Assembly: GCA_905221605.1 (NCBI GenBank)
Contig: CAJNDS010000258.1
Location: 150,001 to 214,000 of the forward strand
From: Symbiodinium natans
Taxonomy: Eukaryota > Sar > Dinophyceae > Suessiales > Symbiodiniaceae
Reading direction: 5' to 3'
DNA length: 64,000 bases
A model generated the notes under the pieces. The model worked only from the letters and a program-made list of their open reading frames with translations, was not told the origin of the DNA and made no database searches. The stretch's first letter is position 1. Every line of letters begins with the position of its first letter. This document shows, piece by piece, positions 28,340 to 48,262 of the stretch. Position numbers and translations under genes: made by a program.

Positions 28340-29056
28340 CTCCGCATAATGAATGCATCTTAGCAGTTTAGGGTTCTTGAAGACAATCGTCGTCTCTGTC
28401 ACGAGACTGTTGGCATGCTCAGGATCATGATGCAGCCGATATCGGCTGATTCAGCAGGAGAGCCACATCCCGGCTTTGTTTTGTGCACTTGCACACTGGC
28501 TTTAGCTGCAGTAAGCGGCTGCCCTGATGTGCTGCTGCTTTGTCAGTGTGGGGAGCGTGCTGCCATACCCTGCCGTACCAGCCAAAGCTGCTCACAGATA
28601 CCTCAAAAAGATCATGTGGACGCTTGGAGGGTATAGGAGGGCATCACGTCATAAAAAGTCATAGAGCTTGGGCACATTGCCGCACTTTCATAGCAGCATG
28701 TAGAAGCAGGTAGAAGCATGTCGAAGCATGTAGAAGCACGGAAAAGCATTGTAAGGAGTATTGTAAGGAGTCCTGCCACAGTGGCACGAGACCCGAGACT
28801 CGCCTGTGTGCACTTAGCCATGGCGATCGTCTTTGCTCCGCGAATTCCGGAGCCTTGGCAAGCCAGTGCCAGGTTCCACGGCATATAGCTTCGATGTAAG
28901 TTCGAGGCGGATTTGAGTAGGAGGAACATATGAATCGCATCACCTTGCCTTTGCCCCAGTTGGAAAAAGGGTTGACACTTCCTTGCAGTACTGACTGAGG
29001 ACTGTTGCTTTGTTGGGTATGGGTAAGCAGTCAAGTGCAATGAGCCACTGACCCAG
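28340..29056. other. Spacer with short repeats
   Basis: An isolated GTTTAGGG word lies at 28368. At 28690-28745 imperfect 10-11 bp repeats of AGAAGCATGT occur. No exon is supported; the long minus-strand frame at 28612-29082 is not protein-like. Confidence 0.35.
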
Positions 29057-29874
29057 GATGGCCTGGGACAGGAGGCCGCCATGGCCCGGGAGGTTCTCCG
29101 AAGCTTCGAGGAGGACTTTGCCGGCCGCTTACACTTCGACCGAATTTATCGGGCATGCCGTGCCTCTGCCGCGCTGGTGGGGCGCTTACACAGGCAGTTT
29201 GCCGCGGGCTGAGGCACGCCATCTCTCGCAGGATGCTCGCATCCATCAGGCAGCCTGTGGTTTGTCCCGGGCCTACAGCTGCCGTGGATATATTCAGGTT
29301 GCGATGCTGGTTGTTCGTACCATATCATGCAGCGTCTTCTACGCACGTCGACACCGCCACCAGAAGCCACAAGGATCGGCTGCGCGGTTGTCGGATCTGT
29401 GGGCTACGTCGGCTTAGCCTCGGCCCCCAGCCACGCCACGGTTGAACTCTGCTGTGTTCAGTGCCAATGCCGTCCCATGCCAATGCCTCTGCAGCCTCAC
29501 AGGTGGCGATACCTCTTCTTGGCCTTGGACCCCTGAAGGCACCAAAGCACAGTGCGATCACTTGGGGGGGCGTTAGCGAAACACCTGCAAAGTTTTGCGA
29601 TGACTCAGGTTGCTGTTGCCAGCGCCCTTGGAGCAATGGGAGGGGCGCGCCTCGGTTGCCCATAGCAGAGCACGGCCCAAGGTCTGAATGCTTTGGAAAT
29701 GCATGGCCGATCCTGTTGCAAGGCACTGGGCGCGGCAGCGTAGTGCCTGAGCTGATGTTGGGAAGTGCCAGGTGTTCGGCTTTGTCGTTTTCAAATGCAG
29801 CTTCCCTGCTCCTGGGGCTGGTTGTGCTCGCAGAGGAGCCAACGCATAGAGCATGGACAAAGCTATGGTAGGAG
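29057..29874 (+). CDS. Multi-exon gene, function unknown
   Basis: A clear exon after GACCCAG starts at 29057 and reads GQEAAMAREVLRSFEEDFAG then RLHFDRIYRACRASAALVGR, open to 29209. Further blocks: about 29327-29458 (TRIGCAVVGSVGYVGLASAP) and about 29505-29871 after CTCACAG (VAIPLLGLGPLKAPKHSA, later SNAASLLLGLVVLAEE). The first exon looks like a helical, charged region; the later ones are small-residue and hydrophobic. No family recognised. Confidence 0.42.
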
Positions 29875-30539
29875 TACTCATACTCGCAGGGAAGATGGAG
29901 TGGTTTACTTACCGAACGTACTCACAGAGTTAACTTGTTGGAAGGCGAACGAGAGAGTCGGCGACAGGGCATCGCGAGGCCGGATGACTTGGGTGCCACA
30001 GCTTTAGCCCTTCGGCCGCAACACAGCTCCAGTTGCCTGGCACTGTTTGCTTCCTGCAGAGCCACTTGGCTTGCCAAACACCTCAGCTGCGACTCTGGGC
30101 GCATGTGGAGACCGCTGTTTCACTCTACCCTTCATTGTGGTATCATTTTGGTGATTTGCTTTTGGTTTTGGTCCTTCTTCTTGGTATGCAGGCAGAAGGG
30201 TGGAATGAGAGCACGGAAGAAGAAATGAAGAAGTAAAGAAAGAAACAAAGACAGAATAAAATACATACAGAAAAAATGCGATATTCAGAAATAGATACAG
30301 GAAAGCAAATACAACAACACAGAAGCGTGCGTGGGAAAACAAAGAGATAGCGGCTGAAATCAGCGGCTGAAATCAAATAATGTAAGAAATAGAGAACGAA
30401 CGAGAGGAAGAAAGGGTTGCGCCCCTTTCTTCCCACCCCCCCCCTGCTTTTTTACATAGCATTGTTAAAGCTTGCCAAGCCTGTCGTGCAAGGATTGTGT
30501 GGGACTGCATCCACTCACCCCAACACCCCCCGCGCCTTT
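29875..30539. other. Spacer with purine-rich tract
   Basis: A short hydrophobic + frame lies near 30135-30180. 30205-30415 is A/G-rich (AAGAAAG-type), ending in GCCCCTTTCTTCCCACCCC. No gene supported. Confidence 0.35.
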
Positions 30540-30997
30540 TTATGTTCCGTGCAAGCTTGCTTCGTAAAAAAGTTCATGCCATGAAGAGGATGTGCGTGCA
30601 AAACATACGAACCCTTTCCAAACCCATCGCGTTGCTTTTTGCAAATGGGGGGGGGAGGGGCTGCACATCCAGCCCCGCCTTTATTTGGCTTGTAAGCCGT
30701 GCAAGCTTGCATGATCACGCCATATGCCATGAAGGGCACTTGCGTTCAAACACGTACGAATCCATGTCAACTCGTCATGCCAGCATTGTGTTTGCAAATG
30801 GGTGGCTGCCCCACCAAGCCCCCGGCAAGCCTCCGGCAAGGCCCCGGCAAGCCCCGCCTTTTAATGAGTTCTTAAGCTGTGCAAGCCTGCTTTTTCAAGA
30901 CGATCGTGCCATGAAGAATGCTGGCGTCAAATCACATACGGATCCTTTCCAAACCTGTCATGAGCATCTTGCTTGCAAATGGAGGGGTGGGGCTGCG

Positions 30998-31028
<31 letters not shown>
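30540..31028 (+). repeat. Minisatellite family A, three diverged units, ending in poly-C
   Basis: Units begin near 30549, 30699 and 30879 with GTGCAAGCYTGC. Each continues with GCCATGAAG, a C-rich CCTTTCCAAACC-type part, a TTGCAAATGG part and a G/C-rich end. The third unit ends in a 31-bp poly-C run (30998-31028). A decayed fourth copy may lie at 31440-31510. The same family in the opposite orientation makes up 42942-43510. Confidence 0.85.
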
Positions 31029-31029
<1 letters not shown>

Positions 31030-31096
31030 CCTCCAAACCCTCTTCTTTTGCCTTCGGGTTCCCCCCCTGGAGTGCCCCCCCCCCCCCCCCCTGCAG

Positions 31097-31203
31097 AGAC
31101 CTGCGACAGAACTGTGGTGAAGTATCCGTACAACTACCTCCGCAAACGACACGATAGCTGCCACATCGGGTATCTGCAGGGTGGAGACGATCTCAGTAAA
31201 TAA
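31097..31203 (+). CDS. 3'-terminal exon after a poly-C tract, function unknown
   Basis: After 17 C residues (31075-31091) and TGCAG, the frame reads ETCDRTVVKYPYNYLRKRHD then SCHIGYLQGGDDLSK and stops at TAA 31201-31203. Composition is strongly protein-like. Upstream exons are not identified; the C-rich minisatellite would lie in its preceding intron and supply the polypyrimidine tract. Confidence 0.55.
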
Positions 31204-31212
31204 TTTAGATCC

Positions 31213-31324
31213 CTGGGCCGAAAGTTTCGAGCTACCGGGGCCTCTTGTTTAACATGCAGCTATGCGCTACTCCGGGCCGAAAGTTTCGAGTTAAGTTTTG
31301 TTTTAACATGCGGCTATACGTGAC
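31213..31324. repeat. Diverged direct duplication, about 58 bp
   Basis: Two copies of GGGCCGAAAGTTTCGAG...TTAACATGCRGCTATRCG at 31213-31270 and 31272-31324, just after the stop codon at 31203, so in a likely 3' UTR. Confidence 0.8.
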
Positions 31325-32222
31325 TCCTGCGGAGTAGCGGAGGGCCAAGAAGTGTCGTTTTCACTAGGCTAGCGGAGTAATTAATGCCCGGTTGAAAACA
31401 TATCTTTTTTCATTCCGGAGGCGCAGTCTTCATTGGATTTTAGAGCTTGCTTTACCGGGAAGATATGCCATGAAGAGCAGCGCTTTCGCAAAACACACAG
31501 ACGAAGCCTTGCGAATAGGTTTCCTACTCAATGCAAAGAAGAAAGTCGATTTTCCTAGAAAAATATAGAGGTTGTCCATTACAATGGCGAGGAATCATGC
31601 AGAAGTGTTGAGAGGAAGGAGAAACACTATAGAGTTCATAGGTCGAGGTTGTCGAAAGCTTTTTTTTGGGGCCTGTTCAGCCACTCAGGCTGCTATTGCC
31701 GGAGCCCTTGCGGGTGTTTTGGGTGGCTTCCGCCCTGAGCCAGCGAAAGGGATGAAAGGGCAAAGTGCGCTGTTGAGGCTGGGAGTTTTCCACCCATTCC
31801 CACAACTCGCCGCTTGAAGCACCTCGTGAAATGGGCACACAGGTGCGCTCGTGAGCAGGTGATCTGCCAATTTCTAGCTTCAGCAAGTAGAAGTTGATGC
31901 ATTGCCGAGGCTTCTGACGAGGTGCCTAGACGTCATCTGAGCTTCGGTTTCCGCAAACACGCCTGGCATATGTGCCTGTGTGGCTGCAGGCCTGGAGCTC
32001 TCTCGGGCAACTGGCGATATGCTGTCCTTGTTGAGGCATGATGTTCAGATCCGCAGCAGTTCCGCAGCTGCAGAAGTCTAGAGAAGCTTGCACGTCACGG
32101 TTGCAGGTGGCATGCGCATTTGCGCCCTAGGCTCAGTCTGAGGAACGTGCCTAGTGCTAGACGCTTGCCCTCTCAAGTGGCCTTCCAGGCCTTGGGCGCA
32201 GCGAGCATACTTCCTGCATGCA
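31325..32222. other. Spacer, no secure gene
   Basis: A + frame at 31572-31817 includes AAIAGALAGVLGGFRPEPAK but lacks splice or family support. A piece near 31680-31710 resembles one near 29604-29634 (ACTCAGGYTGCTRTTGCC), possibly a short dispersed repeat. Confidence 0.3.
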
Positions 32223-32714
32223 ATGAGAGGAGGAGGGTTGAGGAGCCTTGCATTCTGGCTATCACTGGCTAGTTTTTCCGTTGTGCCCAGAGAAACGCAG
32301 TCTGTGTTGTGCAGGGCCCGACTGCACGGCGAGGGCCCGGGCCAGTCTCTCCGCCACTTGCTGCCGCTCTACCGCTTCCTACAACGTAGCCTGGGTACCC
32401 AGCAATGCCCAAAGCTGCTGTGGAGCTCTGTGTGTCTGTCCGTTACTGCTTGCAGCACCTCTGCATACACCAGAAGTGTATTTCATGTAAACAGCTCTGC
32501 ATTTCATGCTGTTCATGGGACACAGGTGCAGTTGTGGAGGTGCCCGCTGCTACAGCTTCCTCAAGCCTTGGCATGTGAAGTTGCATCTGCGCACGCGCAT
32601 GCAGAGACACGTGACGATCACTTGAGCTTGTCCTTTTGTCTGCCGTGGGTGGCGTCTCTGCAAGATAAGGATCTGCGGATTCCAATAACCATCATTGGAC
32701 ACAAGCTGCTTTAG
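32223..32714 (+). CDS. Candidate 163-codon ORF with N-terminal hydrophobic segment
   Basis: From ATG 32223 the frame begins MRGGGLRSLAFWLSLASF, signal-peptide-like, and runs to TAG 32712-32714. No repeats or known domain. Its Ser/Cys/Leu-rich composition could also be chance in GC-rich DNA. Confidence 0.28.
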   Translation: MRGGGLRSLAFWLSLASFSVVPRETQSVLCRARLHGEGPGQSLRHLLPLYRFLQRSLGTQQCPKLLWSSVCLSVTACSTSAYTRSVFHVNSSAFHAVHGTQVQLWRCPLLQLPQALACEVASAHAHAETRDDHLSLSFCLPWVASLQDKDLRIPITIIGHKLL

Positions 32715-34189
32715 CAGCCACCTGTTTTGCAATTCGCATACGGGCAGGGAAACTCACACCCCCCTGTTAAATGGGTTGCTTGGGCTGAATGGCAAGGCGG
32801 GCACGCTTCGCCCGGTGTTAAAGCTCCTCCTGGTTTGAGTGAGTTGGCCGAGTTTTTCCCAGGCTTCCGTTTTGCCTCACCCGGTGCACCTGGCCTGCCT
32901 GCTCCCTGCGTGCTCCGATCTTCTAGCCGACAAGCAGATCATAGCAGATCAGCAGCAACCCACAGGGGGGCTTGTATAGAGGATGATGCTTGCCGCGACA
33001 CTTCATCCATCTCTTTCAGCATGACTGGATGAGCACGAGCAACACTGAATCGTCACCACATACCATGCCTGAACAGTTGTCGCTTGTGCAGGTGCTACTC
33101 GAGTTTTGCTCAACCCTTGCCATTGCGCGAGGGATGCGCCTGTCTTAGCTGTGATGCGGCAGGCTTTTACGCTGTGTAATCTGTACGCTTGCCATGTCTG
33201 CACTCGTTTCGGTTTCTCTCAAGGTCGAAGCCGCGAAGCCTCACCGGCCTCCCCGAGGATCTGCGGTGGCCTTCTGCCGGGTCACGAATCCGGTTGCATC
33301 TGTGCAGGAGATTGTGCAAACTCGGGAAACAGATGCACTTCCTGGGGAAGGTCAGGTATGCCTCTTGCATCAGGGTGCTGCGCTCGCTCAAGAAGTCCGC
33401 AGTCACGGCTGTTTGTGGCAGGCGCGCTGCCGCTGACAGACCGACGTTGCGTAGCCTTGGCAACAGCCCGTGTCTCAGGACTTGAATTTCCTTGTCGGGC
33501 TCGGAACACCCCTGCCCCAAAACAATAGGTCCGGCAAGAACATCGTTTAAAGGTAAGGGGCGGTCTATTTATGGCCACACGCCATTTGAAACAAGAGTTG
33601 GGCTGGGTTGTAAGCGTTTAAACTTAGAGAGAGTTTCGTATTTAGGCTCTGTAAGAATGTACTCTTTGAAGGAGGGCTTTGCATCCCAGCTAGCGGTGCG
33701 TCGGAGCTCTCCAGGGCTGAAGTTGTAAATGGGTTCGGACAGGCCTGATTTTGGCGTGCGAGTCCTAGGTCAGAGATGTAGAGTGTCACTCCGCGCGCAA
33801 TGTACGAGTACAATGTACGAGGGTATGTGGGCAGAACCAGGTTTTGGCTACCATTGCAGCGATGGAGTCTCTCAGCAAGGCCTGGCGTGCACGTCTGCAG
33901 TGAGGGTCCCAGGGTAGCGAAGGCCGAAGGGGGCACACGTCTGCCTTGCATGCAATAGTAGGGGCAGCCGGGTGGGGGGCAGAGTAAAAGCAGTACCAAG
34001 CAGTTCAAGCTTGTGCACATGTCAAGCCCAAGCCGAAGGCTGAGAGTGGGTGAGGGTGAGGGCATCAAGTTTAGAAACAGCCACATAAGCAGAGCATGGA
34101 GAGCCGATGGCCAAGTAGAACGAAGTGCTCATGGCAGTCTCATGGCAGTCTTCTACCATATCATCTCTCTGCTACCGCCTGGAGCGCGC
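32715..34189. other. Long stretch with only weak coding signal
   Basis: Overlapping + frames at 33189-33485 are open in two phases. A piece with TACGAGTACAATGTACGAG repeats a 12-bp word at 33801-33822. 33565-34086 minus is open but not convincing. No family recognised. Confidence 0.3.
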
Positions 34190-35761
34190 ATGGCGCAGAA
34201 GGGCGACACTGCGGAGCGAAAGCGGAAGTTCCAAGACATCCAGGAAGAGGAGTTGCAGCTGAAGGCGCAGCTTCCTGCCGATCGGCACTGCTTGCAGGGC
34301 AAACAGGAGCTTCTCATTGCACGTTTCCCCGTGGCGGTTGCAAATCTCACACTGTCCGGTGTGAAAGCTCTGGCTACAAGGAGGGCTACAGCATCGCAGC
34401 CGATTTGACCTTCTCGCGCATTCTGGATCATGATGCTGGAGAGGAGCGTCCATACAAATCTCGCTCCAACGAGAGACGCTTGTTCGCTCAGAAATTTGTA
34501 AATGTGCGCATGTAGCATTGTTTTACACGGTTTTACTCAAGCTGTCGCAGTGTTCGTCACTAACGGCGAGATGAAGTTGATGAAGTGGCTGATGTCGCAA
34601 CTCAAACTCACAGGTCTGGTCATTGAAGAAAGAGGTTTCATGTCTTCGAGACAGCTCTGTGGACAGTTTGTGGATTGAGGCAAGACGGTGCTCCATTGGG
34701 GTCAACGCAAGCTAATGCTGGCAGAAATTGAGCTGCTCGGTGGGGCACCAGAGGACTCAATTGGCTTCGTGCAGAACTGTAGCATCAGACTGAACAAAGA
34801 TGTAGCGCCTTCAGGTTTCTCTCTGAATTCTACGCGAGAGGCAGCTGCGTTGTGAAGCATGGCTGCACATGGTCGCACACATGCTGGTTGCGCTACGCAG
34901 GCGTTTTAAGGAAAAGCGACTGCTTGGCAAGACATGTCAGCCAAGGTATGCTGGTGCAGCCCCGGGAACCCACATCCGGCACTGTAGCTGCATTATGTAT
35001 GCGGAATACTGCCTCAATTGCAACCTGCACTGCCGAGGCTACTTGCTAAGATGTTCCCCAAGTTGCGTTTCGTGCTAATCGACTGCCGACCTTTCTCGGA
35101 TCATGTGATCAAGGCGCGGCAGCTCGAGCGCACTGCTTGCTGTTGGCTTTTTGGTACATGTTACATGCCTCCAATGGCAGGCTGCCAAAGAGCTGCTTTT
35201 CGAGGATGGTACGTCCAGGACGCCCTGGGGTCATTGGAAGCCAAGATGTTTCTTGACAATCACAAGACTCCTTCGCAGGATCTGCTGTGAGCAGAAATAC
35301 TTCACAGACGAAACAGCCAGGGAGTTCCAGGATCACGAAGGTGGCTCTTTCAGGGAAAGTGCCTAGAGTGCTAGGGCAGATATATTGCTCAATGCATTGT
35401 GCAGCCATGGACTGTCGAATGTTGAAGCAAGAAAGCTGGCAGATGAGGCATCCTCTTCATTTCGGATGTCAGAACGAGTAAGGATGCAGAATCTTGGCTA
35501 TTTAGGCCTCAATTCCTGCCAGTGCAATCAAAAGATGGGCTCAACATTTCGCACGTACCGGACTTCAGAGACTGTTTTCTCGAGGATGAAGGGAATGATT
35601 ATCCCAGCCGCACAGATGCAACTTAAGATGTAGTAGTCGTCGTCATAGTAGTAAGAAAATTCGTCGTGGTGGTAGTCGTAGTCGTAGTGGTAGCGGTAGT
35701 GGCAGCAGTGGTGATGGTGGCGGGCGTGGTAGTGGTGGTGGCGGCGGTGGTGGTGGTGGCA

Positions 35762-35795
<34 letters not shown>

Positions 35796-35797
35796 CG

Positions 35798-35837
<40 letters not shown>

Positions 35838-37136
35838 TCGTCGTCGTCGTGGTCGTCGTGGTCGTGGTGGCGGTGGTGGTGGTGGTGGTGTTGGTGGTGG
35901 TTGTGGTTGTAGTTGTGGTTGTAGTTGTAGTTGTAGTTGTAGTAAGCAGCGGCATCGTAGACTATCTGGCGCCCATCTTGTGACACCTGGTGCAACCGAA
36001 AAGGTCAGAAAGAAGTCGAAGAAGATATGCGAGTTCAAGAGAGGTGGCACCTCCTGATGTCTCTTTGATGGCAAAAACGGTTTTTATGATGGACAGGGGA
36101 ACAGATTGCGTTGCTGCCTGTGCTTTGCACAGCTTTCTCAGCTTATGACTTAAAAGTTGCTAAGCCCAGGAAGCCTGTGGCATCGTGCTTCAAGTTTCGG
36201 CTGCCTTGGGGTGCTTGGCACGCATTATTTTGGCCACCAGCTTTGTCAGGTTGTTGTCCTTGTGTTTGCCCTTGTGTGCCAGATGCTGGGACGACCAAGT
36301 ACCTGAATGGGACTCTGCATTTGCCAGTGACGGAGCTGCAAGGATAAAGATGCTGGTGACGGGTGCGCAGCTTGCAGCTTGTACTCATGGTTGCTGTGCT
36401 GTGAGGTCTGGGGCCCAGCTACCACGACGGAAAGCCGTCTGTTCGTGGAGTTCGAAGGTGTTCAGACTAGCAGTCGTTTCGAAAATACCCTGTTGAGACG
36501 TTACAGGAGTCATGCTGTCGTGTCTCAGACGATGCAACCTCGCACAACACGTCTTCCAGCAGGTCTGGACTCGGAGAAGTGCTTCCGAACCTACGACAAT
36601 CAGAACCTTGGGTCAAAAATTACTCCGACAGCTGGATTCTTGGAACCTTCTCGTATGTGACCGTCTGCCGGTAGTACGAAGACAGGAAGTATGAGCGGCA
36701 AATGTTTTACTTCAACACGCACCGTCGAATCGCGAAGTACAAGCACGACTTTGCCGACTACTTCCGGTCGGGATCACGGACGGAGAAGCAGTTGAGGGAC
36801 CTTGTGGTGCTTTCGATGTATGAGTATGCTGCTGTCGCCAGGTGCTGCTGCTTCGATTGCACGTCCGAGGCGGCCATCTTGACAAAGTATTTTCAGGTGG
36901 TCGAACCGACGCCGGAGGAGGTTGCTGCGCACAACCCGTACATCCCGGCCAAGGCGACGCGGGCATGGAAGGGAAGACGAGACCTCGGGGTCATGGCACT
37001 GTACGGCATAGCATGGCGTAGCTTAGCTGGCATAGCATCCTGTGGCGTCTGGCATATGCAGCAGGATGTGCCGGGAATCAGTCGCTTGCTGGACTTTGAA
37101 TGCCACCGCACTCCGGCATCAAGTTGGCAAGACTAG
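34190..37136 (+). CDS. VP39-family cap-specific mRNA 2'-O-methyltransferase, about 13 exons
   Basis: Members of this family methylate the 2'-O of cap-adjacent nucleotides using SAM. Exons, many joined exactly in frame: 34190- (MAQKGDTAERKRKF, charged); 34381-34497; 34571-34613; 34680-about 34814 (LHWGQRKLMLAEIELL); about 34858-34978 (GAAPGTHIR, SAM-binding loop); 35038-35104 (KLRFVLIDCRPFSDH); 35181-35218; 35279-35340 (KYFTDETAREF); 35448-35477 (ILFISDVRT); 36004-36066 (MRVQERWHLLM); 36157-36210 (SCFKFRLPW); 36283-36326 (YLNGTLHLP); 36406-36444 (TTTESRLF); 36675-37136 (MFYFNTHRRIAKYK). The four catalytic residues known for the family, Lys-Asp-Lys-Glu, are all present (codons 34709, 35465, 36192, 36430). 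Introns include one GC-AG and two GA-AG. The first-exon border, the 34.8-kb join and the 3' end are less sure. Confidence 0.82.
35629..35944. repeat. GTN trinucleotide/hexanucleotide array inside an intron
   Basis: Successive runs of GTAGTC, GTGGTA, GGCGGT, GGGGTC (about 35765-35793), CGCCGT (about 35795-35840), CGTCGT, GGTGGT and TTGTAG units. It lies in the 35478-36003 intron of the VP39-like gene. Long open frames on both strands here (105-155 codons) are artefacts of the repeat. Confidence 0.95.
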
Positions 37137-37529
37137 TCGTTCGAAGACACATGGGTCCTGCTTCACAGCCCATTTGTGCTAAGGAGATTATCAAGATCTT
37201 CGTTCACTCGTCCGAGGAAATCCTGACCCTACGGAGAGGAGGAGAAGGATTCAGAAGCGCCAGACGAAAGCGAAGGTGGACAGCAGGAGTTCGCAGCAAG
37301 GGATAACGTCGAGCACACCAGAGGCGAAATCAGGAGAGGAAAATGCGTGCTCGCTTGATGCAGTGTCGCACAATGGAGACCATCATGTTCAATCTAGCAG
37401 AATCCAGCATCTGCAGGTGTGAGTGGTCCGGGAAACTTCTTCTGTTTTTTGCATTGGCGTGCTGGCTGCACAGGCGTCCTATGCGCGCCTGCGGCAGGGG
37501 CTTGACGTGGATGTCGTCCAGGAGTGAAG
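37137..37529. other. 3' flank of the methyltransferase gene
   Basis: A + frame with KEIIKIFVHSSEEILTLRRG (about 37170-37235) followed by an Arg/Lys-rich stretch may be a further exon. Another frame near 37470-37520 reads SYARLRQGLDVDVVQE. Neither is secured. Confidence 0.3.
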
Positions 37530-37694
37530 ATGAAGGTCCTGGGCGGGCTGACTTCTGTCTCCGCACTTTTGCCAGTCAGGACTCAAGAATATCTACCATC
37601 TTCACGCGATGGGGCCAAAGCAGCCCCAGAGGTGACCTGGATGCTGATCGTGCTCTTCATTGCTTCCCTGTTCTTCTCCAACCCATCAAAATGA
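37530..37694 (+). CDS. Short ORF (54 aa) with C-terminal transmembrane helix
   Basis: ATG 37530 to TGA 37692-37694: an N-terminal Leu/Val/Ser stretch, then a polar middle, then WMLIVLFIASLFFSNPSK. It would be a small tail-anchored membrane protein, or the last exon of a longer gene. It overlaps a longer but less protein-like frame in another phase. Confidence 0.32.
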   Translation: MKVLGGLTSVSALLPVRTQEYLPSSRDGAKAAPEVTWMLIVLFIASLFFSNPSK

Positions 37695-37736
37695 CGTGAA
37701 GTAAAGGCCTGCTTTCAGTTGATTCACTAGCACGCA

Positions 37737-38214
37737 ATGGGCTCGTCAAACGTGCAAGCACACATGCTGACATGCAGGGGTACATTGTTTCTGTCATCAC
37801 AGACAGACCTCGTAGTCGTACATCATTCACACGATCTCGCCTGTCTTTCCTCCTTCCGGCTGGCAAGAGATGTATGGAAGGGGTGGGATCACTCGATGGA
37901 AGCCTGCATTCGAGGCTTGAACCCACACACGAAGAAAACATTGCAGCGAACCGTGCGGGCTGGCAGCGGCTCAGTTTGCAGTGTTATTTTGTGGGCACGT
38001 TTGGTGTAAGTTGCCGATTGTAAGATGCTGCGTAGGCTGCTTAGGATAATCATGATTTTATCAGCTCATGCAGCGCTTTAGTTGGTTTTGGGCCAAGGAA
38101 GCGTTCTGCGGCCCGCAGAAATCCGGGAAGCCCTCTCGTCGATACCACCAATGGCCAGGGCAAAAGTGGCAACGTGCCTGCAACAACTGAGAATTCGAGA
38201 GCCTGCTTACTTAG
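37737..38214. other. Unassigned exon-like sequence
   Basis: + frame near 37872-38003 contains LEPTHEENIAANRAGWQRLS. 38050-38274 is open on both strands (minus: RLLVTIILLDESITRKDLSK; plus: RNPGSPLVDTTNGQGKSGNV). The plus reading could precede the acidic exon at 38215. Confidence 0.3.
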
Positions 38215-38759
38215 GTCCTTCCTGGTGATGCTCTCGTCGAGGAGGATGATAGTGACAAGGAGGCGGGATACCACCCTAAACCCTGAACCCTAATTAAACC
38301 CGAATTCAACCTTAAACCCCAAACTCCTACACCCTAAACCGAGAAAGATTGCCATATTGCCATATTTACAGGGCTTTACCGGGGGGGGGGGGGGCGGCAA
38401 AGAGATTTCAGAAGGTGGAAGCCGCTGAGTTCCATTCCATCACGGACTCCGAAGAAGAGGCGCAGGGGGAAGGGTCGGCTCCTGAGACTCCGTGGTTTAG
38501 GGGTTAGGGTTTAGGGTTAGGGTTTGGGGTTTAGGGTTTAGGGTTCAGGGTTCAGGGTTTAGGGTTTTAGGGTTTAGGGTTTTAGGGTTTAGGGCTTAGG
38601 GCTTAGGGTTTAGGGTTTAGGGGGTTTAGGGTTTGGCGGTCTGTTCACTACGCAGGTTGCAGGAGTGTCGCCTTGCCGAAGTGTGATTTCAGTGAGGGGG
38701 ATGTGGGCTGTGCTTCAGCACCTGTTGTGGCAAGGCCAGGTTCTTCAACTGCAGTTTAG
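38215..38759 (+). CDS. Acidic disordered protein, exons separated by telomere-like introns
   Basis: 38215-about 38266 (after ACTTAG) reads PGDALVEEDDSDKEA. 38412-38494 (after ATTTCAG) reads VEAAEFHSITDSEEEAQGEG and ends phase 2 at TG|GTTTAGG. 38663-38759 (after GTTGCAG) completes Trp and reads SVALPKCDFSEGDVGCASAP, then TAG at 38757-38759 (or a further GTTTAGG donor at 38754). The two later exons join exactly in frame across a 168-nt intron. The product is rich in Glu, Asp, Ser and Pro, so probably unstructured. No function can be named. Confidence 0.5.
38274..38340 (-). repeat. Telomere-like CCCTAAA array, degenerate
   Basis: CCCTAAACCCTGAACCCTAA-type units to 38340, in the intron before the exon at 38412. 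A poly-G run (38381-38394) follows. Confidence 0.88.
38495..38636 (+). repeat. Telomere-like TTTAGGG array forming most of one intron
   Basis: About twenty TTTAGGG/TTAGGG/TTTTAGGG/TTCAGGG units. They begin with the GT donor itself (GTTTAGGGG) and fill about 140 of the 168 nt between the exons at 38494 and 38663. Confidence 0.93.
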
Positions 38760-39462
38760 GAGAGGAGCGATGGCTGCCCTTTTTGTCGTGATGATTTCGG
38801 AGGCGGACAGGCGTGGGGGAGGCTATGGGTGGCGATGCCTAACTACCTCACCACCTCCCTACATACTACCTATCTGACCCGCTTCCTGCCCCTTGCTTTT
38901 GTCCAGTGTTTGCTGAGGTTCGGGTATGATCTGCGAAAAGCAGACTTTCCGCAAGGCTTGGATCTTTGAGATGTATCTGCCGCAGAGCCCCCAATGTCCA
39001 GTTGTTAGGAGTCGGCTTCGGTGGCACTAACTAGTTGTTGGTCACGAGTCAGCATGGAATCGCCTCGAGTAGGTGAGGTCTCATCGATGCCTCGAAGTAA
39101 GAATGTCTGCTGGCAGGTGACGGGGAGCACAGCTGGAATGTTCATGACGCGCCGCTTGCTCAGAGGGTTTGCCCTCGCACCTTTTTTGCCTTTGAGTCTG
39201 CAAGATGGGATCACAGGACATACGACTGATGGCTTCTGCGTCAGGTCTACTTACAAGCTTCGATCAGATAGTTATTTCCTCGATGGGACGCTCGGCTCGA
39301 ATGCTATTCTGCATCATCTGTCACCCTACTTTGGTACCCGATTTGACTCCAAGCGACTCTTGAGGTCAAAGGAACCCTCAGGTCGGAGCCTAGAATTCTG
39401 CATGTGGAGTTCGCATGTGGCCTGTGTGAACGTCTCCGTCCTTAGGTCCTGCCATGCTGCAG
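38760..39462. other. Spacer with unassigned coding-like sequence
   Basis: 39118-39230 after CTGGCAG is open in two + phases. The 163-codon frame 39021-39512 has no recognised domain. Confidence 0.3.
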
Positions 39463-39846
39463 CTGGTGGATGTGGATGTCAGCCTCATTGGACCACGTGG
39501 GCCCGTCGTTGAATCAGTGGGTGCCTTTGTGCGAGCGTCGCTTGCTGCCACTGCTAGCTGCTGCCGTGCGAGTACACGAGGCGACGCATCCCGACTTTTC
39601 GTGCCAAGCCTGGCTCTCAGTGTTACCACTGAATTTCTAGTAGTTCAACTGATGCTCGGCCGTGTTAATTCTGACCCCTCTCTGCAGTGCTTTGTGCTGC
39701 GTTTCCTGTCACTTTGTCACGTTGTCACTTTGTCACTGAGTGCCAAAGTTTCTGCTGGCCCATGGCATCTTCAGGCAATCAGACGGCGCGGGGATAGACG
39801 TTTCCTGTTCATATTGAACTTCATCATGCCTCCATACCAGGCCTGA
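39463..39846 (+). CDS. Candidate exon, function unknown
   Basis: After CATGCTGCAG the frame reads LVDVDVSLIGPRGPVVESVG then AFVRASLAATASCC and stays open to TGA at 39844-39846. The first 30 residues look real; the later Ser/Leu-rich part may be intron. It could be an upstream exon of the EDR2_C gene. Confidence 0.3.
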   Translation: MVDVDVSLIGPRGPVVESVGAFVRASLAATASCCRASTRGDASRLFVPSLALSVTTEFLVVQLMLGRVNSDPSLQCFVLRFLSLCHVVTLSLSAKVSAGPWHLQAIRRRGDRRFLFILNFIMPPYQA

Positions 39847-40120
39847 GAATTCGTGGCATGAGGACATGCTGACTTGTTGGAACTGACCGGCCCTCAGACC
39901 ATCATGACTGCTGCCCTCGATCCATCATCTGCCTGGCTATCGGGGACTCCACAGGCTGCGACTGCTGAAGGTTTCTGAAAATTGAGTGGCGCGTGATGTT
40001 AGTAGACTAGCATGCCCAACAGCCCAGGCGTGCTGCGCCTTGGTTTCAAAGAGGAAGCTGTCTGAAAACGTTGTATCCCGAGCCCGGCTCAGTGTTTACG
40101 CTCATTTCTTCATTTAGTCA
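39847..40120. other. Spacer or intron
   Basis: No exon recognised between the candidate exon ending 39846 and the pyrimidine tract. Confidence 0.3.
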
Positions 40121-40288
40121 TTTTTTCTTTCTTTCTTTCTTGCTCTCTCCCTCTCTCTCTCTCTTGCTCTCTTCATTGCTTCTTTCCGTCATTGCTTAAT
40201 TTCTTATTTTCTTATTTTCTTCATTTCTTTCGTTCTTTTATTTTCTTTTCTTTCTTTGGTTGACTCTCTCTTTCTGTCTCTCTTGAGC
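40121..40288. repeat. Pyrimidine-rich T/CT tract ending at an acceptor
   Basis: CTTTCTTTCTTTC, CTCTCTCT and TTATTTTCTT-type runs, leading directly to TTGAGCAG (acceptor at 40289-40290). It serves as a very long polypyrimidine tract for the next exon. Confidence 0.85.
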
Positions 40289-40290
40289 AG

Positions 40291-41330
40291 TATACGTATA
40301 CGGCGCTGTGCGAGTGAACTCTCTTCTTGAGGAACGCTTCACTACGGTATATCGTGCATACAAACAACCACGGCTCATCCTGCAAGATCCTTTAGACTTC
40401 CTCTGTGGCAAGCTCTGCCTCAGGGGCGTGTGTGGCAACGCTTCTTGGAAGCAGGCCTGGAGGACGCTTCGGGCTTTTTGATATGGTGTGTCCACAGAAT
40501 CTCACTAGCTACATGGTCGTCCGTTGCGAGGAGCAGAAGAAGAAGCTGAAGGTCATCTTCTCCGTGGAGACGGGCCCCTGGGTGCTCCTGGCCAGTGCAG
40601 GGGCTCTTTGTCCCGGTCCAAGCTGGCTCCCGGCCTCTGAAGAGTCCTTCAGGTGGTGAAAAAAGTCGCCCTCAAGAAGCCAACGCTGATCGGCATGAAG
40701 ATATCAATGGCTCCGGTCTTAGAGTCATGTAGACGAAATTCTGTGACGTTCTGTGGTTTTGCGGCCGCGGTACTGAGGAAAGCCACTACAAGCCTGAGGA
40801 ATATCTGGAGATCACGTTGGACGTGCAACTCCTACATGTGTGAGTCTGCTGGGATGCTGCATGTGAAGTTACAGGGGCTGTGATGCTCACCAGGTCACCA
40901 ATGGAGGGAGGGGTGGAGGCTACGAAGAGATGGCTTGGGCCTCAGCTGCTGTTGTCGTCTGGTGTCTCTGTCCTGATCAGGGCATCGTTTGCAGCGAACG
41001 TGTATTCTTGCCATGGCTGAGGTGACTCGCATGGTCTTGTCTCCAAGCTGCAATGGCAATCCAAGCTAGTACCTCGATGATGGTGGTCTATAGCAGAGAA
41101 GCGCTCTTAGGCGACACGTGAAGAGCTTGGAGTGTGGCCTGTGCTGCCTGATCGAGGCTTGGGCTTGTGAATTTGTGCAGCTATGTGGGTTCGCTTACCT
41201 TTGGTCTGCTGGATTGCTGATGGATCTTCTACTGCAGCTTTCGCACTTTTCCCGCCCTACCCAGGCGACTCAGGAAGACGAGCTACCAGAGTGCAGAGCT
41301 AAGGGCATACATACCAGTTGTGGGTGGTGT
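40291..41330 (+). CDS. EDR2_C (DUF1336) domain protein, multi-exon
   Basis: Exons on +: 40291-about 40470 (RVNSLLEERFTTVYRAYKQP); about 40500-40581 (CEEQKKKLKVIFSVETGPW); 40653-about 40702 (VVKKVALKKPTLIGMKI); 40778-40837 (HYKPEEYLEITLDVQL); about 41015-41045 (MAEVTRMVLSP); about 41265-41300 (QEDELPEC). The joined GPW/VVKK..KKPTLIG and HY..EEYLEITLDV pieces, then an ELPE motif, follow the order of the EDR2_C domain. That domain is known from plant EDR2, where it accompanies PH and START domains in lipid-linked membrane signalling. GPW|GTGCTC and CAT|GTGTGA are good donors. Upstream PH/START exons are not found in the window, so this may be a stand-alone domain or an incomplete model. Confidence 0.58.
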
Positions 41331-42445
41331 GACATGTGTAGAGAGATTCGTGAGATCAACGTGCCAAGAGGTGTGCGCTCTTTGCACTCTTCGTGTCGCA
41401 CCCAGTCGGGTACTGAGAGCTGTTCCTCTAGCCGTGGAGTGCTCTGTCACATGTAGCCTTACGTAGCCACCACAGTGTCACCACAAGCGTCAATCCACAC
41501 CTTGCCAGGACTTCGAGCGAATGGCGCTCGCCGTGTCTGACTGAAGCATACTGAACCGTGTCATCATCTCACTATTCTTCTACCGGGATTCTACCGTCCT
41601 GTTTGTTTTCGTTTGATCTCCTTCCGGAGGCATCGCTGGTTCGTAGGACTCGTAGCACGTGGTACCTGACGCAAAGATCGGGGCTTATGGTTGTGCCGGC
41701 GTGGCCGTTCAAGACGAACGGCCGACAAGTGCGCAGCACGATGGATTTATGCTACGTCCGTCATGAAAAGAGATCGAGAAAGGATTTGAAAGGATGCCGG
41801 TGCGAAGGCGCGGGAAAGCAGCCTAACATTCACAGCCTTCGCGCAGCTCGTGAGCTTGAAGCGCTCCCAACGTAGTTCAGGCAGAATTTGCAAGGAATGT
41901 GTGTTTAAACGTTGGCCCCGCGTCAGGCACTGGAAATGCAGATCCGTTGACGGCACCGGCAGCGAATTGGATTGGGCCGTGCGCAGCTCACCGCTCACGT
42001 CCTCATGTCCTCATCTGGTTCAACCACTTCGCTGGCTTCAAGCTCTCCTCAAACTTGGCATGTCGCCTGTAATGTTTGGCTCTCTTTCCTGTGGGTTCCC
42101 CCTGGCCTCAAACAGTTTCAACTCAAAAAGACCCTGTTTGTGCATGGAGGCTTTTGCCAGTTCACTGCAGAGGCCATTTGGCTTTAAACTTGAAACGCTT
42201 TAACTTGACAGCTGACGATGGTCAAAGAAACGGCCTTTTGAAGAGAAAATGTGACGTTAAAATGGTCCCCAGACACCTCAAACAGGGGTGGAGGTGGGGG
42301 GGGGGGGGGGGGCACCGACAATTTTGAGATCATCAAGTGAATTTACCCCCATTCCTGGATCCAACTGTCAAACCTTGACCCAAATCCAAACCTCGTCAGA
42401 CTCGCAGTGATGATTGTAGTCAACTTGTAGAGGCGGAGCTTGAAG
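41331..42445. other. Coding-like frames without a gene model
   Basis: + frames at 41558-41875 (RSGLMVVPAWPFKTNGRQ) and 41850-42203 are open and overlap a minus frame at 41747-41998. Splice joins and family are unknown. A 17-bp poly-G run is at 42296-42312. Confidence 0.28.
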
Positions 42446-42744
42446 CAGCGGCAAAAATACGAATCAGAGACCAGAGGGTCCAATCAGAGACCAGACACAC
42501 CGAATCAGAGACCAGGCTCAGAATCAGAGACCAGACAGGCAGAAACCGAGGCAGCGGCAAAAATACGAATCAGAGACCAGAGGGTCCAATCAGAGACCAG
42601 ACACACCGAATCAGAGACCAGGCTCAGAATCAGAGACCAGACAGGCAGAAACCGAGACCAGATTCCAGAATCACCCCCCTCAGGATCAGAGACCAGACAG
42701 GGCCGAATCAGAGACCAGACAGGGTGGCATCCGAAACCAAAGGG
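42446..42744 (+). repeat. Minisatellite family B (CAGAGACCAG), direct orientation
   Basis: Two 106-bp copies (42446-42551 and 42552-42657), each with four AATCAGAGACCAG words, then three further words to 42720. It carries an open frame only because the unit has no stop in one phase. The reverse-complement words recur at 43941-44120. Confidence 0.92.
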
Positions 42745-42941
42745 ACGTCAAGGGAAAGCAAAGGGTTCATTGTTGTAACCACTGGGTTGACCGAAGTCGC
42801 TAGCCACGGCTTCTCGCACTTCAGGATTTAACGTGAATGAGGGTTTGAGGTTTACACGTGAGGCTTTGGGGTTTAGGGTTTCGGGTTCACAGTTTAAGAA
42901 GCATCCACAACACAGATTCTTCCGTATCAGGGCAACCGAGG

Positions 42942-43510
42942 CATCGTGGGTTTGGAAGGGATTCGCTTGAAGCAGGCCTGCCCGAGGAAAATAGAAAGGG
43001 CGCAGCCCCCCCCATTTGCAAACACAATGCGCGCATCATGGGTTTGGAAGCGATTCGTTTGAAGCAGGCTTGCCCGAGTAAAAAATACAAGCGGGGGGGT
43101 TGGGGGGGGCGCAGCCCCCCCCATTTGCCAAGACAATGCCCGCATCGTGGGTTTGGAAGGGATTCGTTTGAAGCAGGCCTGCCCGAGGAAAATAGAAAAG
43201 CGGGGGGGTTGGGGGGGGCTGCGCCCCCCCCATTTGCCAACACAATGCCCGCGTCATGGGTTTGCAAGGGATTCGTTTGAAGCAGGCTTGCCCGAGTAAA
43301 AAATGGGTTTGGAACGGATTCTTTTGAAGCAGGCCTGCCCGAGTAAAAAAAAACGGTACAAAATAAAAGCGGGGGGGGGTTGGGGGGGGTTGCCCGAGGA
43401 AAATAGAAAAGCGGGGGGGTTGGGGGGGGCGCAGCCCCCCCCATTTGCAAACGCAATGCCCGCATCATGGGTTTGGAAGCGATTCGTTTGAAGCAGGCTT
43501 GCCCGAGTTA
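42942..43510 (-). repeat. Minisatellite family A, inverted relative to 30.5 kb
   Basis: Units start with CRTCRTGGGTTTGSAAGSGATT at about 42942, 43034, 43143, 43252, 43303 (shortened) and 43463. Two full spacings are 109 bp. Each contains GAAGCAGGCYTGCCCGAG, an A-rich link and G-run/C-run blocks (GGGGGGGTTGGGGGGG and GCAGCCCCCCCC). The minus-strand sequence aligns by eye with the units at 30540-31028. Confidence 0.92.
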
Positions 43511-43514
43511 CAAA

Positions 43515-43925
43515 CAAGTTGGGTTGGTCGGGGTCGGGTCAGGTAGACTCCTCTGGGGCGGGATGCTAGGTCGTGAGTCGGGTCACGGGTCGGGTGGGTT
43601 GCTTGGTCAGGGGTCAGGGGCCGGTCGGGTGGGTCGGGTCGGGTTATTACTGCGTCACAGGACGGACCGTGCCGACAGCATTCTGCCACGAGGGTACGTC
43701 ATGGTGGCTGAATGCATTGGTCTACTCTTTCGGTCGCTTCGCCCACTGCTGCGGGTCCCTGGCTGCTTGGGTTGGGTTGGTCGGGTTGGTTGGGTTGGTC
43801 GGGTCGATCGGATTGGTCGGAGCGGTCGGGCGGGTCGGGTCCGGTTGGGTTGGTCTGGTCGGGTGGGTTGCTTGGTCAGGGGTCAGGGGCCGGTGGGGTG
43901 GGTCGGGTCGGCTGGAGACGGTCGG
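43515..43925. repeat. GGTCGGGT/GGTTGGGT-type repeat with a 50-bp repeated block
   Basis: Eight-bp-like GGTCGGGT and GGTTGGGT words at 43515-43645 and 43770-43920. The block GGGTGGGTTGCTTGGTCAGG... occurs near 43589 and again near 43861. The central 43646-43765 part lacks the repeat. Confidence 0.88.
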
Positions 43926-43940
43926 GTGCCTGATTCGGCG

Positions 43941-44122
43941 AGCCTGGTCTCTGAATCCCATGTCTGGTCTCGGAATCTGGGAGCCTGGTCTCTGAATCCC
44001 ATGTCTGGTCTCGGAATCTGGCTGCCTGGTCTCTGAGTCTGGTCCCCTGCTGGTCTCGGATTCCCCCCTCCTGGTCTCTGATTCGGCCCTCCCGGTCTCG
44101 GAATCTGTTCCCCTGATTCGGC
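43941..44122 (-). repeat. Minisatellite family B, inverted (CTGGTCTCTG)
   Basis: CTGGTCTCTGAATCCCATGT and CTGGTCTCGGAATCTG words with a 41-bp spacing at 43941 and 43982, followed by more diverged copies. These are reverse complements of the words at 42446-42744. Confidence 0.9.
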
Positions 44123-44320
44123 CTTCACCCGCAGCGGCGTCGAATTCGCAGACGAAAGTCCGACGAAATCTAAAGCCTCAAGGGCCTTCAAGCATACATT
44201 GTAGCTGGAATCTGCCAGAGACCTGATGGAAGTCGAAACCCCAACCGCCGCCGGCGACCGAAGATTCGGCAGTGTATCAGACTTCCAACAGGGCGGGACG
44301 AAGGAAATACGCACAGAGGA
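44123..44320 (-). CDS. Candidate minus-strand exon beside repeat B
   Basis: The minus frame contains RSPAAVGVSTSIRSLADSS and YNVCLKALEALDFVGLSS, protein-like and ending as it runs into the repeat. No splice partner was established, and another minus frame overlaps upstream (44277-44621). Confidence 0.28.
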
Positions 44321-44668
44321 AGTCTATGGATCTTATGCGCATGTGAGACCTTTGCTCAAAAGTGGAAACATCTTTGTGAAACACAAGCACCGGCCGGCAT
44401 AGGTACACCGGGCAGTGGGTTTTCGCTGTTTGAAATCCAGCAGCAATGCAGTAGGCGCCGTGCCACGGCCTCCAAAGCATACACAGCAGCTCAACAGTTT
44501 TGGGACACTTTTGCATGCGAGTGTCCAGGGCAGATTCCTTAGGGTCCCAGGTCTTTTCGCAAGTTGACGCAAAGAGAGTCGGGAAATTATGCTCCACGCC
44601 CCGCTGCGAAGCAAATGCCATGAGCTGTGCATAAGGCCTTCCTTGATTTGGGGTGATGCAGATGTCCG

Positions 44669-44995
44669 ATGTGCGGGGCTGCCCAGCATTTTGAAAGAGG
44701 TGCAGAAGTCCTGTGTAGCCTCAAAGCCTTAAAGCAACTTCAAGTCGAAGCCTTATGCAACAACTTGCGGGCACCTTCGCAAGCATCAGGATGTGGATGT
44801 CGCGACCGGACGCGTCTTAACGGCCACTGTCCTGGCCTCCGAGCGGCCAGGTCCCCGAAGTTGCGTGCGGAGTCGAAGGTCAAGTCTTGGCCATCCTGGT
44901 CATCCCACGGCATGCTACAAGCCCAGCGCCTGACTAAGGGAGATCACCGCCAACCGCGACTACCAGCTGACCATCTTCGCGACGGGACCGCATAA
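44669..44995 (+). CDS. Candidate 108-codon ORF
   Basis: ATG 44669 to TAA 44993-44995; starts MCGAAQHFERGAEVLCSLKA. It is Arg/Ser-rich later, where a second + phase is also open (VDVATGRVLTATVLASERPG). Function unknown. Confidence 0.25.
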   Translation: MCGAAQHFERGAEVLCSLKALKQLQVEALCNNLRAPSQASGCGCRDRTRLNGHCPGLRAARSPKLRAESKVKSWPSWSSHGMLQAQRLTKGDHRQPRLPADHLRDGTA

Positions 44996-45979
44996 CTATA
45001 TTAGTCATACTGAGTCGTGCATCCGAATGAAAAGCGGCCGCGCGGTCGCTATACGAACGTGCATGCTTTGCCAAGGTGAGAAACCCAACCCTCACGATTC
45101 CGCCTTATGAGGCAAGGCCCATCGGGTGGATCCTCATATGCCCCATTAAGCAATACATTCAACACACTAGCTGGCATGATCAGCTTTGGATTTGGACTCT
45201 GCAATGTATTCTTCCCTGCAACACCCCAAGTATATCCTCAAGCTGTGCCATGCTGTCACATGAGCCCGGCAGACCCAGGAGGCTGAGAAAAGTCAGTTTC
45301 ACAGTTTCAGCCTCTGACAAGTAGCAGAGCCCACGTCCTGTGCCGTTTCAGCCTCTGACAAGTAGCAGAGCCCATGTCCTGTGCATGTAAAGACAGGTTG
45401 CGCAGCATGCTCTCAGATGTTAGCAGCGGAGCTCTTCGTGCAGGAAGCCATCTGGAACGTCTGGAACCTGGACACGTTCGACAGCCCATCATCATCTGGT
45501 GCAGGGTGCTCGGTGTAGATGCCTCCACATGGGGCGGGACATGCTGCTGATACATTGATACATGATGCAAGCGTGACTCCACGACTCGAAGACCGTCCTG
45601 CGAGGTTTTGCCCACCTTCCGTGACTCAATCACCATGCCCAGGGCTCAGAGCAGTTTCGATTCGTTTCGGCCGGACTGTAGCTCGCCTTGCATCAAGCAA
45701 AGGCCGGGCTACCCCGTCTACAACAAAGCACGGCAGTGGGTGGTGCGCAATCAGGAGCACCCTAAAACCACTTTCTGCTGATGCTATGGTGTTCCAAAGC
45801 ACGCGGATGTGACTGGCACTGGCGAGGATCCTGTCACTGGTCAGAACTACCGCAATGGGCTGTGAGCTCAGCTTCCACTGACAGTTCACAGCTCGTGACC
45901 ACGGCTGAAAAGAGGCTGTACTTGTCGTGCTTTATCGTGCTTTCACAGGCTTTCTGAGATCCCTGGTCTCTTCGTTCAG
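44996..45979. other. Spacer with weak coding signal
   Basis: A + frame at about 45130-45250 (YIQHTSWHDQLWIWTLQCIL) is open to the small tandem repeat. 45519-45889 is open on both strands without support. Confidence 0.3.
45304..45385. repeat. 41-bp tandem duplication
   Basis: Two copies of GTTTCAGCCTCTGACAAGTA... at 45304-45344 and 45345-45385, differing at one base by eye. Confidence 0.93.
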
Positions 45980-46834
45980 TTCCAGCTGCCGACGAAGTTG
46001 GTACCAGGAGATGTCAAAGCCCAAGAGTCCAAGCGAGTTAATGATGCTGGAAATGTGGCTGAGGACAAGGTATGAGCATACTGCAATAAAAGAAATACGA
46101 TAATAAAACACATAGCACTATAATCATATACTTTTGCAAATCATGTGCATGAATGTGCATGAATGTGCATGTGGCGCATGTGGCCCACGTGGCCTCGGTG
46201 GCCCCAGAGTGCCCCAGACTGCTCAGGTCATATCCATCGAAGGTCCAACAGGCTTCACGTTCAAGACCGCAATGTCCCAAGCTTCTCCATGAAGACTTCT
46301 TCCCCATCGCAGGTGGCATGTGGGATCATGTAGGTTAGCTCTCGACACGATCAATGCATGCCAAGGGCGCACAGGATTCATGTGATGACTTTCGATGGGA
46401 GCCGGTGGAGGCCGGGAATACTGAAAGCACTGAAAGCTGTTGATGGAAATCCTCTCCACACGTCCATGCCAGGATGCCTATCTCTACTTGCCGAACTCTT
46501 TGATCACGTGCGTCAACAACATGCTTACCTTTCAGGAGACCTCTTTCTGGGTTTAGGAGTCCTGTCTCTGCCATCTGAGTGACACACGGACCTCATGCAG
46601 GTTCAGGAGCCCAAGAACATTCCGGAACTGCGAACGATGATGTTCCGGCTCACATCTCGGAATCCTGCCAAGACGCCGCACGCCGTGGGCTTAGCCCAGC
46701 TGAAAATCTTGTTTTTCAGGCGTCGTGACGGGTTGTGGATAATCGGATGTAGAGCAGCTCGCCAAATTGAGATGCTACAATGCGAAGGTTTGACATACGT
46801 AGTATGGCCAAGTATCGAGAAGCAACGGCTCTGA
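45980..46834 (+). CDS. Multi-exon gene with beta-type repeat unit, function unknown
   Basis: 45980-46069 is a clean exon (after TTCAG, before AAG|GTATGA): LPTKLVPGDVKAQESKRVND. About 46228-46280 (after CTGCTCAG) reads VISIEGPTGFTFKTAMSQ. About 46373-46450 reads SCDDFRWEPVEAGNTES. 46600-46834 (after CATGCAG) reads VQEPKNIPELRTMMFRLTSR and ends at TGA. The ISIEGPTGFTF piece resembles the hydrophobic-AP-x-GF-x-F unit also seen near 53500. A (GCATGTG)-like repeat lies in the second intron (46143-46200). Confidence 0.5.
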
Positions 46835-47229
46835 AAGCAATCTGTTGAAACCGAAAATGTATATTTCTAGAACTTCATTTCCCAAGCACTGTGCTCACCC
46901 TATGACGAGCTTCCGGACGCAGTCAACTTTGACGGAACTTTGGGTGTGAAAGTGGAGTTACATAGGGTTTCGATGTATTGGCTTTTGGGAGAAGCTCGTT
47001 TAGTTCCATTGAACATTGGTCAGACCTCTAGCCCTAGTCACCTATTGCAAGCTCAATTAGATTCGTTTGCCTGCTTCAGCACATTAAAGCCGAACGAAGC
47101 TACTTTACTCTCCAAGTAGATGAGGCTACAGTTGTAACTTGTAACTTAGGGTGCTTGGAGCCTATCTATGCAAACACACACGAACGAACGTAGCACAAAG
47201 ATACAGAATGATTTGTGGGTATCCTAATG
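46835..47229. other. AT-richer spacer
   Basis: No exon or repeat recognised. Confidence 0.4.
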
Positions 47230-48050: not shown

Positions 48051-48262
48051 GCGCTGGAGCCGACCGGCTTTGACTTCACGGGTGCTTCAGCGGTTTCGCT
48101 GGGCCACGAGGCCTGAACCCCAGGAGCCCCAAACTCTACACCCCAAGATGCCCCCAAGATGCCCCCAAGATGCCCCAAGATGCCCCCAAGATGCCTATAA
48201 AGGCCCTAAGCCCCAGAAGATGCCCCGAAAGGAAGGGGCGGTTTTCGTGTCCGACTGCAAAG

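Follow-up and report, generated by a model that had tools for sequence, protein, structure and literature searches.

A VP39-family methyltransferase gene nested within an EDR2-like gene of Symbiodinium natans and its possible role at the spliced-leader cap

The question raised by this locus is whether a dinoflagellate genome encodes a complete cap 2'-O-methyltransferase of the type known from the poxvirus protein VP39, and on which RNA such an enzyme would act. The stretch analysed here (the window) comprises 64,000 nucleotides from Symbiodinium natans (contig CAJNDS010000258.1 of assembly GCA_905221605.1, positions 150,001 to 214,000 of the forward strand), and it holds on the forward strand, at 34190..37422, a gene predicted to encode such an enzyme, situated entirely within an intron of a second, EDR2-like gene. 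Taken as a whole, the explanation favoured here, with slightly more confidence than doubt, is that of a complete nested gene with an mRNA of its own, encoding a VP39-family enzyme whose most likely substrate would be the spliced leader. The presence of this gene makes the question of the dinoflagellate 5' cap a testable one.

Gene structure and enzyme family

The structure of the methyltransferase gene is directly supported by the spliced alignment of the best relative, P0001, which gives 19 coding exons and 426 amino acids followed by TGA, with no stops or frameshifts. Exons 1-10 lie at 34190-34306, 34381-34474, 34680-34731, 34815-34853, 34946-34978, 35038-35113, 35181-35218, 35279-35340, 35448-35488 and 35585-35606, and exons 11-19 at 36004-36058, 36170-36210, 36283-36326, 36406-36457, 36563-36602, 36686-36766, 36842-36953, 37065-37107 and 37184-37422, all on the forward strand. 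The aligner is a custom script. It accepts AG as acceptor and GT, GC or GA as donor; an AG with a G after it earns a bonus, and any stop or frameshift costs score, so that the absence or frequency of these features is partly built in. Under identical settings, the controls fall well short of the 1585 obtained for the real protein: none of 20 shuffled proteins exceeds 128, the reverse strand gives 82, and 11 other stretches of the window reach no more than 121.5. The gene is far beyond chance. Moreover, 10 other relatives, including those of Naegleria, Monosiga and Medusavirus, thread wholly or partly through the locus without stops or frameshifts, with scores of 436-965.

Dinoflagellate introns are characterized by mixed donors and by an AG followed by G. 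The 18 introns of this gene have GT, GC and GA donors (six of each), and G directly follows the acceptor in 17 of them. Intron 10 (35607..36003, forward strand) consists, between about 35663 and 35943, mostly of short, degenerate repeats in which G, T and C predominate. The exon boundaries depend slightly on the query, to the extent of a few bases: with P0002 in place of P0001, exons 2, 9 and 17 shift at their ends and one small exon is added, which leaves those boundaries less sure, and exons 35/36 of the EDR2-like gene vary likewise. A first exon set, drawn by hand, included intron-derived residues at numerous junctions and stopped short of the end of the gene; it was replaced after the threading of P0001.

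The first-pass annotation of this DNA had described a near-complete gene ending at 37136, a position which falls in the last intron. The gene is complete to 37422, since the additional exon at 37184-37422 supplies the C-terminal tail and the TGA stop. Of the seven sequence motifs listed in that annotation, six are found exactly in the spliced product and the seventh ends in LMLAEIEFL rather than LMLAEIELL, because the earlier reading ran two residues beyond the donor of exon 3. At the other end, the start codon is provisional, with further in-frame ATGs at 34142 and 34019, and a pyrimidine-rich stretch ending in AG directly 5' of it (34150..34184, forward strand) may, judging from the sequence alone, be a trans-splice acceptor.

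The product belongs to the VP39/PF01358 family, as is established by profile search, by its ordered Lys-Asp-Lys-Glu tetrad and by the fold of a relative. The 747-amino-acid joined product, which extends into the EDR2-like exons considered below, scores 87.7 bits with PF01358 against a gathering score of 25.4, bearing out the family assignment made earlier; the hand-joined draft had reached 44.6 bits against the same cut-off of 25.4, and in a comparison with the PDB it matched VP39 with an E of 2.2e-5. The structural model is that of P0002, a relative and not the window product, with a pLDDT (predicted local distance difference test) of 86.8, and VP39 is its best match in both Foldseek and VIA-align. 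Furthermore, at E up to 1 the joined product matches PF01358 and PF07059 only, and no match to PF01728, the FtsJ/CMTR1 type, was obtained.

The catalytic tetrad, reported as complete from the outset, is confirmed in full: Lys 81 (34709..34711; VP39 K41), Asp 177 (35465..35467; D138), Lys 218 (36192..36194; K175) and Glu 247 (36430..36432; E207), all on the forward strand, are identical in 31/31 aligned rows. Trp 223 (36207..36209, forward strand) stands at the position of VP39 Phe180, the cap-stacking residue, and is W in all 31 rows; Glu 272 (36693..36695, forward strand) occupies the place of VP39 Glu233, a cap-binding residue, and is E in 28 of the 31 rows and M in three, being E in 10/10 dinoflagellate-type rows. 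The Lys-Asp-Lys-Glu tetrad is the mark of RNA 2'-O-ribose methyltransferases, and the known substrate of the VP39 family is the cap. By homology, the product is very likely a cap 2'-O-methyltransferase.

Position within the EDR2-like gene

The surrounding EDR2-like gene (29081..41541, forward strand) was delimited by spliced alignment of P0122, which threads 44 coding exons with 524/608 identical residues and no stops or frameshifts, giving 609 amino acids, a stop at 41542-41544 and a C-terminal EDR2_C domain (PF07059, 100.5 bits on the joined product against a gathering score of 24.7). P0122, of 615 amino acids, comes from a JGI contig no longer than 2244 bases; its EDR2_C part is 98.9% identical to P0001 over 360 residues and its N-terminus is different. 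According to the same threading, exons 20 (33841-33879) and 21 (37474-37523) flank the methyltransferase gene, and the phase-0, GC..AG intron 20 between them (33880..37473, 3594 base pairs, forward strand) contains all of it. The exon 20/21 join is continuous in P0122, P0205-P0209 and P0211, and not in P0210; P0205-P0208 are uninterrupted EDR2-like proteins, and the genome-derived P0209 (Polarella glacialis) and P0211 (Durusdinium trenchii) also span the join. The match of P0210 begins at 29054 and hints at a true start of the EDR2-like gene upstream of 29081; in 28820-29080, an ATG at 28820 opens an N-terminus that by eye resembles that of P0210.

Thus, the methyltransferase gene is, in this genome, a same-strand gene nested in intron 20 of an EDR2-like gene. 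It had been called an ordinary spliced host gene, and spliced it is, with 18 introns, but the nested setting had been missed. Direct evidence of nesting, with host exons on both sides, comes from this window only. Elsewhere, the order of methyltransferase followed by EDR2 exon 21 is found in gene models of Symbiodinium pilosum (P0121), of the P0001 genome and of the P0123 genome, which suggests that this order is common to the three. For the P0001 genome, P0210 (s385_g6.t1) carries the EDR2 N-terminus, with 194/194 residues identical to P0122; by its name it belongs to the same unit as P0001, and conflictingly its match to EDR2 stops near the end of exon 15, beyond which it departs from EDR2. 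For the P0123 genome, the counterpart is P0207, an EDR2 protein without interruption that shows 95.7% identity over 347 residues.

Two observations weigh against the picture of two separate genes in a nested order. The first is P0011 (s1336_g6.t1), in which RRM exons, and not EDR2 exons, precede the first half of the methyltransferase, so that the model of that genome does not show the nested order upstream of the gene. The second is that P0001, P0121 and P0123 join the methyltransferase to EDR2_C. P0001 (744 amino acids), which represents 16 member sequences, threads 43 exons at 34217-41541, with 628/738 identical residues, no stops or frameshifts and a phase-0 join to exon 21, and P0121 and P0123 come from two further genomes. 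On these grounds the methyltransferase exons could serve the EDR2-like gene as an alternative 5' portion, joined to exon 21 in one transcript, and the fusion protein could tether the enzyme to lipid. All three are, judging by their names, computed gene models, and they look like annotation merges because the three disagree on the methyltransferase side of the junction and because P0121 also runs on into a third gene. The same is indicated by the identity between window and P0001, which falls to 10/20 in the residues just before the junction, as against 318/364 before and 300/353 after, and by P0002-P0010, nine uninterrupted methyltransferases without EDR2_C whose C-termini fall on the KRQ tail or close to it (in P0002, immediately ahead of it). 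Moreover, both Pfam domains occur together in one match, P0001, among the best 120 of 292. A fusion as the plain reading of the locus was dropped once the EDR2 N-terminus of P0122 was mapped upstream of the methyltransferase, and the version with an alternative 5' part is considered improbable.

Further observations concern the neighbourhood. P0121, a S. pilosum protein of 1001 amino acids named 'EDR2', threads 36027-52587 in 62 exons without frameshifts and so merges part of the methyltransferase, part of EDR2 and the third gene; public annotation thereby hides the methyltransferase gene. The third gene lies at 41728-52587 on the forward strand, where the last 506 residues of P0121 thread 31 exons with 452/503 identical and no frameshifts; its outermost small exons are unsure, and no Pfam domain was found in it at E up to 0.1. 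Finally, intron 26 of the EDR2-like gene contains an internal telomere-type array at 38494-38634, with about 20 copies of GGTTTAG (similar to the telomeric TTTAGGG), and CCCTAAA-like words are scattered near 38275-38340.

Relatives and origin

Orthologues in other dinoflagellates had been proposed as a check on the gene. A relative is present in a named dinoflagellate, Symbiodinium pilosum (P0121), and many further relatives are among the matches listed. The window itself shows its dinoflagellate character by matches to named proteins of Symbiodinium pilosum (P0121), Polarella glacialis (P0209) and Durusdinium trenchii (P0211). Among the same matches, PF01358-type proteins come from Monosiga, Naegleria, Thecamonas, Palpitomonas, Calcidiscus, Vannella, Rhodomonas and a ciliate, and from Medusavirus; two of the protein searches were limited to the 8000 candidates with the most words in common. 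We know of no spliced-leader use in any of these eight eukaryotes. The special parallel with trypanosomes suggested at first is not supported, because the family occurs in such lineages.

A tree was built from 69 rows. Besides the product encoded in the window, these are two viral loci and a selection of 66 from 211 collected proteins, P0011 being left out. The tree is unrooted, with a midpoint root for drawing only, and no row is named as kinetoplastid. The 11 dinoflagellate-type rows, a label given to P0001-P0010 by similarity, form one clade with support of 100/97. This clade lies inside a group of 36 rows (95/84) with Monosiga, Calcidiscus, Rhodomonas, Nuclearia, a ciliate and rows of uncertain source, including one protein from a metagenome-assembled genome named as archaeal and several metagenome contigs. 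Medusavirus, Naegleria, Thecamonas, Palpitomonas and Vannella stand outside the group, and the two relatives confirmed on viral contigs are both long branches.

These data bear on the possibility that the gene was recently gained from a large DNA virus and landed in the EDR2 intron. Giant-virus cap methyltransferases lead the viral fold matches, and Medusavirus proteins are among the matches listed. Against such an event stand the 18 introns of dinoflagellate type, the single clade of dinoflagellate-type rows apart from Medusavirus and with no named viral row inside it (the source of long-contig and metagenome rows being uncertain), and the occurrence of the order methyltransferase - EDR2 exon 21 in three other gene models. 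A recent giant-virus insertion is scarcely credible and largely refuted by the introns and the clade, in agreement with the first-pass annotation; an older exchange with viruses may have taken place, in a direction that the unrooted tree does not give.

As regards copy number, a search of the species' own genome (759 megabases, 2543 contigs) with P0001 gave 18 matches, of which 17 belong to this locus. The remaining match, a weak one with an E of 1.06, involves the EDR2_C part and lies elsewhere in the genome. A PF01358 profile search of the same genome gave no matches, as did its controls, the exons being probably too short for the search. In addition, P0011, of dinoflagellate type, and P0140, of Calcidiscus leptoporus, combine PF01358 with an RRM domain, which may be a merge or real.

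Cap chemistry, proposed role and known systems

According to the accessible part of a 2012 review, an unpublished proposal based on liquid chromatography-mass spectrometry gives the dinoflagellate cap as m7GpppA(U)pCmpCmpG, without trimethylguanosine and with no evidence for 2'-O-methyl adenosine, and verification is asked for (PMC3388326). In another source, as far as its available text goes, the leader cap is called unique without detail (PMC4330643). In Amphidinium, m1A, m6A, m6Am and m7G have been measured, and the portion of the report at hand gives only m6A and m1A as considerable in poly(A) RNA (PMC11549093); the low m6Am is compatible with a first ribose that carries no methyl group, but since m7G was low too, the measurement says little on caps. 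In trypanosomes, as the consulted part of one source states, the first four nucleotides of the leader are 2'-O-methylated, TbMTr1 being of CMTR1 type and TbMTr2 and TbMTr3, which act after the first nucleotide, of VP39 type (PMC9479742). Because the proposed dinoflagellate marks sit where the trypanosome VP39-type enzymes act, an enzyme of VP39 type is an obvious candidate for leader nucleotides 2 and 3; on these two weak supports, the chances that it acts there appear nearly even. A 2006 paper, by its title, reportedly assigned a 48-kDa VP39-like protein to position 2.

In the mechanism proposed, the methyltransferase would be translated from its own mRNA despite the location of its 19 exons inside intron 20, and in the EDR2 mRNA exon 20 would be spliced to exon 21, the methyltransferase being skipped. 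The enzyme would, by homology, bind m7G-capped RNA and S-adenosylmethionine and methylate the 2'-OH of a nucleotide next to the cap by means of Lys81, Asp177, Lys218 and Glu247. Its most likely substrate would be the capped spliced leader, at nucleotides 2 and/or 3 (CC), by comparison with the VP39-like TbMTr2, which acts at position 2 in trypanosomes. It is also conceivable, with a low probability, that one pre-mRNA has two fates, in which cis-splicing of exon 20 to 21 would yield the EDR2-like mRNA, and leader trans-splicing before 34190 with 3' processing inside intron 20 the methyltransferase mRNA; with the leader cap as a substrate of the enzyme, the choice could be self-regulating. The leader sequence gave no match in the window with up to 3 mismatches allowed, and Rfam no match at gathering score.

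The leader-cap role advanced in the first-pass annotation gains some support from the 2'-O-methyl groups quoted for leader nucleotides 2 and 3 (PMC3388326), the role itself being one that we infer. Several points count against it: the proposal is second-hand and unpublished, a 2018 review, in its accessible part, describes the dinoflagellate cap as still to be determined (PMC6027434), and a general cap-2 role fits equally, because the family is common in protists without known leader trans-splicing. The same gene and enzyme could act on RNA polymerase II transcripts generally (cap 2 of mRNA or of small nuclear RNA), the leader being at most one of several substrates, and this has a real, if minor, chance of being right. 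It is favoured by the eight protist lineages named above and by the position of the dinoflagellate-type clade within the 36-row group. It is disfavoured by the marks proposed on leader nucleotides 2-3 and by the consideration that, if the leader caps most dinoflagellate mRNAs, it would be the main capped substrate anyway. With this gene, the unpublished proposal has a definite enzyme that is open to expression and assay.

The VP39 enzyme family and the existence of nested genes in dinoflagellates (the latter from the available part of PMC7245778) are already known; what is new, as far as the open-licence literature shows, is a VP39-type enzyme in dinoflagellates and its nested place. No VP39-type cap enzyme named for dinoflagellates was found in the titles and abstract beginnings of that literature, which is weak evidence of absence given that most subscription papers lie outside it. 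The accessible text of a 2026 review of dinoflagellate RNA-binding proteins contains none of the terms 'VP39', 'capping' and 'cap structure' (PMC12787238).

With respect to known systems, the location in an intron of a multi-exon gene resembles that of the nested genes of Polarella, where, according to the part of the report consulted, such introns house 6.5-8.4% of the predicted genes, as full-length transcripts also bear out (PMC7245778). The present case differs in being a same-strand gene of 19 exons in a Symbiodinium-like genome, and merging into 'EDR2' models goes unmentioned in that part of the report. In contrast with animal CMTR1 and CMTR2, of the FtsJ type, the product lacks a PF01728 match, and VP39 chains score far higher. 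A functional analogy is with Trypanosoma brucei TbMTr2 and TbMTr3, which are VP39-like by published comparison and active on leader nucleotides after the first, as given in the available section of that source (PMC9479742). One locus is seen here with P0001, whereas trypanosomes have two VP39-like enzymes. VP39 has a second role as partner of the poly(A) polymerase, which is not expected of the dinoflagellate enzyme. Finally, compared with poxvirus VP39, to which identity is about 24% (measured on P0002) and whose D182 position is variable among the aligned rows, the dinoflagellate gene is nuclear and has 18 introns, and its product has a conserved stretch near the N-terminus and ends in a basic tail.
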